From the NCBI GenBank assembly GCA_963931865.1, contig OZ007517.1, forward strand, positions 5,035,707 through 5,099,706: a stretch of DNA of 64,000 nt, given 5' to 3'. Below the pieces are notes generated by a model, which was not told where the DNA came from, ran no database searches, and worked only from the letters and a program-made list of their open reading frames with translations. Position 1 is the first letter of the stretch, and each line of letters begins with the position of its first letter. Made by a program: the position numbers and the translations under genes. The DNA is from Axinella damicornis. Lineage: Eukaryota; Porifera; Demospongiae; Axinellida; Axinellidae. Below are positions 49,125-55,571 of this stretch, in pieces.

Positions 49125-49133
49125 CGGCCAGTC
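49125..49133 (+). other. Candidate 9-bp target-site duplication, left of copy 1
   Basis: CGGCCAGTC directly abuts the element's first base and is repeated directly after its last base at 49887-49895. The AGTC form is a minority variant of the usual AGGC, so finding it on both sides is less likely to be chance than a generic satellite match. Deleting the element and one copy gives an unbroken 20-bp unit. Confidence 0.75.
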
Positions 49134-49198
49134 GGTTGCGTGTAAAACCCGGAACGTGGAATGGAACATGGAATGGAACGTGGAACGGATGTAAAATG
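49134..49198 (+). repeat. Left terminal inverted repeat, copy 1
   Basis: The 15-bp terminus is followed by three 12-bp subrepeats of the form GGAACRTGGAAY at 49151, 49163 and 49175, then GGATGTAAAATG. It pairs with 49805-49886. Internal tandem subrepeats in the termini are a known trait of foldback elements. This arm has one 12-bp subrepeat and 5 bp fewer than the right arm. Confidence 0.9.
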
Positions 49199-49411
49199 AA
49201 CTAATAAGCGTGTTAACTAATTGGGGTTGTCGCGAGCGAGCCTGCGCATGCAGTAGTCGGCATAGACAGTGCAAGAGTCGAGTCAAGGGAGATGGTGGCA
49301 GAGGACAATCATCGCGCGAGTGACAACCTGGCTACGCGAGACTACCCGTTGTTATGCCCTGGCCTGGATGGAGTATTTCGCCGATCAGCGAAGTGAAGCA
49401 GGGCTGTTGTA

Positions 49412-49435
49412 ATAATAAACTACGTAGTTTATTAT
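49412..49435. repeat. 24-bp perfect palindrome with AATAAA on both strands
   Basis: The half-site ATAATAAACTAC is followed immediately by its exact reverse complement, with no spacer. It lies at the left side of the loop, off the axis of the large inverted repeat. AATAAA occurs at 49414-49419 on the + strand and at 49428-49433 on the - strand, so it could act as a two-way polyadenylation signal. That role is speculation; the palindrome itself is exact. Confidence 0.9.
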
Positions 49436-49804
49436 CTATGGTAATATTAAAGTGCGAGCAGCATCACTTGTGTAAGCTGTATGAACGTGTACCGTGCTAG
49501 CGCTATAAACCTAGCTAGCTGTGCTGCTATGCTGGCCCGCTCACGCTTATTCGTCACTCGAAGACCGTATGCCGTAAGTACAGTATAGCCCTGCTTCACT
49601 CGGATGGCATAGTCATGTCAACTAGTCTAACATCTTGTTGTCTACCGTGAACTTCTCACATCCAGGGCATACAACCTGCCGGTAGTCTCGCGTGGCCAGG
49701 CGCCTAGGCTGGGCTCTCATGATTGTCACCAAGACTCGAGACTCGCTCGCGCCAGCTCCAATTAACGCCCACCTTAATTAACATGTTTATTGGACTCATT
49801 ACGA

Positions 49805-49886
49805 CATTTTACATCCGTTCCACGTTCCATTCCATGTTCCATTCCACGTTCCATTCCATTCCACGTTCCGCGTTTTACACGCAACC
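49805..49886 (-). repeat. Right terminal inverted repeat, copy 1
   Basis: Read on the - strand it starts GGTTGCGTGTAAAAC and carries four 12-bp GGAACRTGGAAY subrepeats plus a 5-bp partial (GGAAT) before GGATGTAAAATG. It is 82 bp against 65 bp on the left, and the 17-bp difference is one 12-bp subrepeat plus the 5-bp partial. Confidence 0.9.
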
Positions 49887-49895
49887 CGGCCAGTC
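49887..49895 (+). other. Candidate 9-bp target-site duplication, right of copy 1
   Basis: CGGCCAGTC is the direct partner of 49125-49133. The satellite resumes in the unit GGCCAGTCCCTCACGGGGCC, in phase with the unit left of the element. Confidence 0.75.
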
Positions 49896-54800: not shown

Positions 54801-54809
54801 CGGCCAGTC
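54801..54809 (+). other. Candidate 9-bp target-site duplication, left of copy 2
   Basis: CGGCCAGTC precedes the second element exactly as it does the first. The identical 9-mer at all four element edges favours copying of an occupied site over a second independent insertion. Confidence 0.7.
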
Positions 54810-54874
54810 GGTTGCGTGTAAAACCCGGAACGTGGAATGGAACATGGAATGGAACGTGGAACGGATGTAAAATG
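54810..54874 (+). repeat. Left terminal inverted repeat, copy 2
   Basis: Identical to the left terminus of copy 1: a 15-bp end, three 12-bp GGAACRTGGAAY subrepeats, and GGATGTAAAATG. It pairs with 55481-55562. Confidence 0.9.
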
Positions 54875-55087
54875 AACTAATAAGCGTGTTAACTAATTGG
54901 GGTTGTCGCGAGCGAGCCTGCGCATGCAGTAGTCGGCATAGACAGTGCAAGAGTCGAGTCAAGGGAGATGGTGGCAGAGGACAATCATCGCGCGAGTGAC
55001 AACCTGGCTACGCGAGACTACCCGTTGTTATGCCCTGGCCTGGATGGAGTATTTCGCCGATCAGCGAAGTGAAGCAGGGCTGTTGTA

Positions 55088-55111
55088 ATAATAAACTACG
55101 TAGTTTATTAT
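55088..55111. repeat. 24-bp perfect palindrome, copy 2
   Basis: Exact repeat of the palindrome in copy 1, half-site ATAATAAACTAC, with AATAAA on both strands. Confidence 0.9.
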
Positions 55112-55480
55112 CTATGGTAATATTAAAGTGCGAGCAGCATCACTTGTGTAAGCTGTATGAACGTGTACCGTGCTAGCGCTATAAACCTAGCTAGCTGTGC
55201 TGCTATGCTGGCCCGCTCACGCTTATTCGTCACTCGAAGACCGTATGCCGTAAGTACAGTATAGCCCTGCTTCACTCGGATGGCATAGTCATGTCAACTA
55301 GTCTAACATCTCGTTGTCTACCGTGAACTTCTCACATCCAGGGCATACAACCTGCCGGTAGTCTCGCGTGGCCAGGCGCCTAGGCTGGGCTCTCATGATT
55401 GTCACCAAGACTCGAGACTCGCTCGCGCCAGCTCCAATTAACGCCCACCTTAATTAACATGTTTATTGGACTCATTACGA

Positions 55481-55562
55481 CATTTTACATCCGTTCCACG
55501 TTCCATTCCATGTTCCATTCCACGTTCCATTCCATTCCACGTTCCGCGTTTTACACGCAACC
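55481..55562 (-). repeat. Right terminal inverted repeat, copy 2
   Basis: Identical to the right terminus of copy 1, including the fourth 12-bp subrepeat and the 5-bp partial. Confidence 0.9.
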
Positions 55563-55571
55563 CGGCCAGTC
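55563..55571 (+). other. Candidate 9-bp target-site duplication, right of copy 2
   Basis: CGGCCAGTC follows the last base of the second element and continues as CCCCACGG, in phase with the satellite. Confidence 0.7.

Follow-up and report, generated by a model that had tools for sequence, protein, structure and literature searches.

A probable Mutator-like foldback element in a sponge satellite array and its putative transposase-encoding master

We analyzed a 64,000-bp stretch of DNA from the sponge Axinella damicornis (the window; contig C13, positions 5035707–5099706 of a 226.5 Mb genome in 120 contigs), in which a 753-bp element interrupts an array of a 20-bp satellite. Very probably, this element is a non-autonomous cut-and-paste foldback transposon of the Mutator-like (MULE) type that entered the satellite in a single insertion, is moved in trans by a master of the kind found at locus L051, and was later duplicated together with the array: Because the element shares its ends with L051, is accompanied by 9-bp duplications, and L051 encodes a MULE-type transposase, movement in trans is the most likely explanation. 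The genome contains Wnt pieces at three loci as well as at least 201 SRCR matches, which is in keeping with an animal and probably with a sponge. A preliminary description of the window had proposed a non-autonomous element inserted into the array, and the 9-bp duplication, the dispersed copies and L051 with its identical ends all bear this proposal out.

The element in the array and its second copy

The window is made up of one G+C-rich satellite with the unit CCCCACGGGGCCGGCCAGGC (1–64000, plus strand), which is broken by two A+T-rich islands at ~49.1–49.9 kb and 54.7–55.6 kb; in no other 100-bp stretch of the window does the A+T content exceed 25%. Copy A of the element (49134–49886) starts and ends with 15-bp terminal inverted repeats (TIRs) without a mismatch (GGTTGCGTGTAAAAC / GTTTTACACGCAACC; 49134–49148 on the plus strand and 49872–49886 on the minus strand). 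Both of its edges abut the 9-bp direct repeat CGGCCAGTC (49125–49133 and 49887–49895), which represents the target-site duplication; length, termini and flanking repeat are as the preliminary description gave them. The ends contain tandem subrepeats of ~12 bp (GGAACGTGGAAT), likewise noticed before, in 3.2 and 3.8 copies (left end, 49151–49189, plus strand; right end, 49814–49858, minus strand), and at the left these make up a putative transposase-recognition region. Nested inverted repeats extend inward from the termini, and a perfect 24-bp palindrome lies within the foldback (49412–49435; element positions 278–301 are their own inverse). As a single strand, the element is predicted to fold with −197.7 kcal/mol, versus −100.0 kcal/mol (standard deviation 4.7) in 20 shuffles (z = −20.8). 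Long TIRs, internal tandem repeats and folding over most of the length are what characterizes a foldback element, and the earlier label of this kind is upheld by the subrepeats, the inverted matches between the ends and the fold energy. The longest ATG-initiated frame lying entirely within the 753 bp comprises 48 codons.

Removal of the element together with one 9-mer restores the phase of the satellite, as had been claimed: CCGGCC then recurs every 20 bp across the junction. The AGTC form of the unit, in which the insertion lies, was also correctly recognized as a minority, with 74 occurrences of CGGCCAGTC in the window, of which four adjoin the two element copies, versus 1474 of CCGGCCAGGC. 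We propose that the element inserted once into such an AGTC-variant unit, whereby a staggered cut and subsequent fill-in would have generated the duplication of CGGCCAGTC.

Copy B (54810–55562), which is absent from the preliminary description, is identical to copy A at 752 of 753 bases and is flanked by the same 9-mer, CGGCCAGTC, at 54801–54809 and 55563–55571. Identical borders might suggest that copy B transposed independently and that the element prefers the AGTC unit as its target. For the 1.5-kb flanks of copy A, we considered all private 60-mers, that is, those found at exactly two places in the window: 356 of 526 have their partner at an offset of +5200 to +5750, whereas no such pair occurs in any of 11 control stretches, each 3 kb long. 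Moreover, the family's insertion sites (36 in number, the window one included) display no target motif, the information content being at most 0.15 bit per position, and a target motif was hence rejected. Shared private flanks, a lack of target preference and a single differing base make an independent second transposition into the array highly improbable, and we rejected it on account of the first two; copy B was made by duplication of an array segment that carried the element. The offsets of the flank matches vary between the copies (5676, 5536, 5516, 5476 and others), and satellite units were gained or lost after the segment duplication. In the proposed course of events, the element-bearing segment would have been copied to a place ~5.3–5.7 kb away, and the paired copies mark this duplication as later than the insertion.

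As for the satellite itself, spot sampling of contig C13 between 5.03 and 5.20 Mb detected it or a variant in 10 of 11 short probes (L072–L081, 5,030,300 to 5,200,200), the probe at 5,029,500 being the one without it. An exact satellite 36-mer occurs 977 times in forward and 548 times in reverse orientation genome-wide, with 698 and 0 of these inside the window; among the 100 places listed for it, only one is in reverse orientation, on contig C2.

A dispersed family with target-site duplications

A genome search with the element returned 146 matching pieces, and its 15-bp end, when one mismatch is tolerated, is found 91 times in each orientation genome-wide, versus 12 (forward) and 24 (reverse) times for a reversed control pattern. 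We examined 50 loci, which correspond to 48 distinct places because two pairs overlap: 30 are the best genome matches and 20 are regions chosen from the genome matches and from 100 of the 182 terminus places. Both ends are present at 44 of the 48 places, one end being missing at L008, L063, L064 and L068. An exact 9-bp direct repeat flanks the element at 38 of these 44 and a 10-bp repeat at one more, which conforms to the target-site duplication of 8–11 bp by which the MULE superfamily is defined in PMC6446971. Since the window pair as well as L069 and L070 share their flanks by duplication, 36 of 42 insertions are exact when each is counted once. L069 (C14:5122.8 kb) and L070 (C4:6791.6 kb) have the same 20-bp flanks on both sides, which, by analogy with the satellite, suggests the copying of another repeat together with the element inside it.

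The preliminary description had named copies outside the satellite, with consistent ends and 9-bp repeats, as the expected traces of a transposon, and such copies were indeed found on many contigs in non-satellite flanks, the nearest relative of the window element among them being L003 on contig C4 with 96% identity. Long satellite arrays are often misassembled, and an assembly fault or an inverted repeat that arose by chance might be invoked to explain the pattern; given that elements with these ends and 9-bp duplications are dispersed over many contigs, such an artefact is next to impossible and was rejected. Because L015 (contig C10) and L016 (C6) are identical across 787 bp within different flanks and L011 and L014 are 99.9% identical, we conclude that the family moved recently.

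All 42 elements scanned have an inverted match between their own ends, which is 80–155 bp long in 33 of them and 48–49 bp long in the window copy and in the master; the family thus carries TIRs, often long ones, as MULEs do. At L059 (480–1334, C4), an 855-bp copy constitutes an inverted repeat across nearly its full length, pairing with itself over 12–808 of 855 bp at 85%. Another copy, at L052 (574–3249, C1), measures 2676 bp, agrees with short copies at ~98% identity across 700 bp, and apparently has another insertion in its left end.

Across the 84 ends of the 42 elements, the outer 80 bp including the subrepeats are conserved at 94–99% per 10-bp block (96–99% in the subrepeat zone), and conservation drops to 65–69% beyond 140 bp. 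As the elements are related, and as picking them by their recognizable ends biases the outer 15 bp towards high conservation, this is suggestive only; the pattern is the one expected if the transposase recognizes the subrepeats. Extra binding sites within the repeats of Galileo TIRs are cited by PMC4079207. In the mechanism that we propose, the transposase would recognize the conserved outer 80 bp, with the 12-bp subrepeats as its putative binding sites.

The putative master and its transposase

Among the 100 of 182 terminus places, only one pair of termini lies more than 3 kb apart: It delimits L051, a 6327-bp member on contig C9 with the same termini as the short copies and its own 9-bp duplication, which codes for an 850-residue frame of a DDE transposase and an upstream exon. 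A longer relative encoding a DDE transposase, to which the preliminary description had pointed, is therefore present. The residues D, D, C-x2-H and E, which we take to be the MULE signature, are invariant in all 37 aligned transposases; a SWIM-like C-x3-C-x8-C-x-H is likewise invariant in the family alignment, and 24 of the 37 relatives reach the Pfam MULE model. The predicted fold of the L051 transposase is nearest to that of ISCth4 (PDB 6xg8, 6xgx; 12–14% identity over the aligned part), a bacterial insertion sequence and presumably a member of the IS256 family. Next in the structure ranking are chains of hAT (Hermes), P element and retroviral integrase, matches that reflect the common RNase H fold and not membership, and a sequence search of the PDB gave no match to the transposase at E ≤ 1. 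Its conserved residues, its predicted fold and the Pfam Mutator matches of its relatives assign the L051 transposase to the Mutator-like type, so that a candidate autonomous member with the family's own ends carries a DDE transposase of the MULE/IS256 kind. MULE domains are said in PMC3169594 to occur in both Mutator and IS256 transposases. A protein from an ENA contig (P0001; longest 98,971 bases) agrees with the L051 transposase at 839 of 845 residues and probably stems from the same species in another assembly.

We infer that this transposase, or that of another master of the L051 kind, moves the short copies in trans. Several observations weigh against the overall interpretation of the element. 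An exact 9-bp repeat is lacking at 6 of the 44 places: L014 and L055 agree at 8 of 9 positions, L058 at 6 of 9, L066 at 4 of 9 with a one-base shift and L061 at 2 of 9, and L016 is exact at 10 bp. The sequence common to L051 and the window element is limited to ~280 bp at one of the ends and 53 bp at the opposite one. The L051 frame itself falls short of the Pfam thresholds, with 14.2 of 27.6 bits for MULE and 16.5 of 21 for Transposase_mut, and the fold matches have a high root-mean-square deviation (9.4 in Foldseek with a target TM of 0.39, 7.8 in VIA). With 53 of 239 candidates scored, one intact copy of the L051 transposase was found, the other matches being either fragmentary, with up to 95% across 65 residues, or relatives of at most 48% identity. 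Finally, no transposition has been observed.

The single intact copy would also fit a scenario in which the element is mobilized by another transposase and L051 is not the active master. Pfam MULE matches occur at 51 places in the genome, 25 of them in open frames of 616–1336 residues, which indicates that several other MULE lineages are present and could supply such an enzyme. Yet L051 is the sole widely spaced terminus pair among the places sampled, and it combines its own 9-bp duplication with an open frame and the family-conserved residues; mobilization by a different transposase is thus unlikely, and we retain a master of the L051 kind as the source of activity.

Relation to known elements and origin of the short copies

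The preliminary description had called the element Rehavkus-type. According to PMC6446971, Rehavkus combines a PHD finger with a minisatellite before the 3' TIR, a 9-bp duplication and TIRs of 26–400 bp, and Phantom (group 20) has FLYWCH, SWIM or neither, with duplications of 8–10 bp. Our family resembles both in the size of its duplication and in TIR length, both of which fall within the Rehavkus ranges published there. The part of the label that stood is the minisatellite: L051 contains 45–54-bp units (3.0 and 2.1 copies) at 1749–1928 (C9), with the 3' terminus at 1218 on one side and the frame of the transposase, ending at 1984, on the other. This trait is not exclusive to Rehavkus, since aphid Phantom MULEs also have a minisatellite after the transposase (PMC6446971). 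The part that did not stand is the PHD finger, for which no model was found at E ≤ 1 in the 850-residue frame, in three other L051 frames or in four longer relatives, which include the upstream exon; FLYWCH, one of the Phantom options, gave no match in the L051 frames or the four longer relatives either. With the minisatellite present and the PHD finger not found, we do not file the element under Rehavkus. In light of the invariant SWIM-like motif as well, it is quite doubtful that the element belongs to the Rehavkus group proper, that is, to a sister or outgroup of MULEs instead of a MULE clade.

The element belongs to an already known kind, with Tm1 of root-knot nematodes as the nearest precedent. 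As described in PMC3169594, Tm1 has foldback-like composite TIRs of variable length with repeated motifs inside, 9-bp duplications, many copies resembling miniature inverted-repeat transposable elements, and a single putative autonomous MULE-encoding member. Our family shares the foldback-like TIRs with internal repeats, the 9-bp duplications, the many short copies and the one MULE-encoding member. The two differ in that Tm1-A has 496 residues with a FLYWCH finger and is placed in the Phantom subclass (PMC3169594), whereas L051 comprises at least two exons (850 residues plus the upstream exon) and has a SWIM-like motif without a FLYWCH match; moreover, most short copies resemble, at either of their ends, a single end of L051. 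Tetris of Drosophila virilis is a non-autonomous foldback with 8–10-bp duplications, tandem repeats in its TIRs and a satellite link (PMC4079207), but Tetris supplied satellite repeats, whereas here the satellite is the landing site. Neither Porifera nor sponge is mentioned in PMC6446971, and in the literature found, judged by titles, no Mutator-like element in a sponge and no MuDR in Amphimedon has been reported.

Beyond the terminal 50 bp, both ends of 37 of 40 short copies match the left (3') end of L051, downstream of the transposase; the remaining three (L001, the window copy; L056; L058) match it at one end only. Against the right end of L051, no end of the 40 copies exceeded 22, the highest score among 200 shuffles. 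Further places compared comprised transposase fragments at L082 and L083 and single termini at L084 and L085. Since the two ends match the same 3' end, each short element resembles a pair of inverted copies of a single end around unrelated internal sequence, and simple internal deletion of L051 was rejected on these grounds. One end may have been copied twice; alternatively, the short copies may go back to an older master that had long TIRs and later exchanged its right end for another. We tentatively propose, as a serious possibility short of a probable conclusion, an undescribed and recently active animal MULE lineage with "double 3-prime-end" foldbacks, both ends of which stem from the terminus that, in the autonomous element, lies downstream of the transposase.

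The findings connect the foldback copies with one particular MULE transposase gene that has an open frame and lies between the same ends; the autonomous partner of Tetris was not found (PMC4079207), whereas here a putative master is at hand. That both ends of 37 of 40 copies come from one side provides a testable model of foldback formation: If it is true, foldbacks can result from the double copying of one transposase-binding end and not from gradual elongation of the TIRs.
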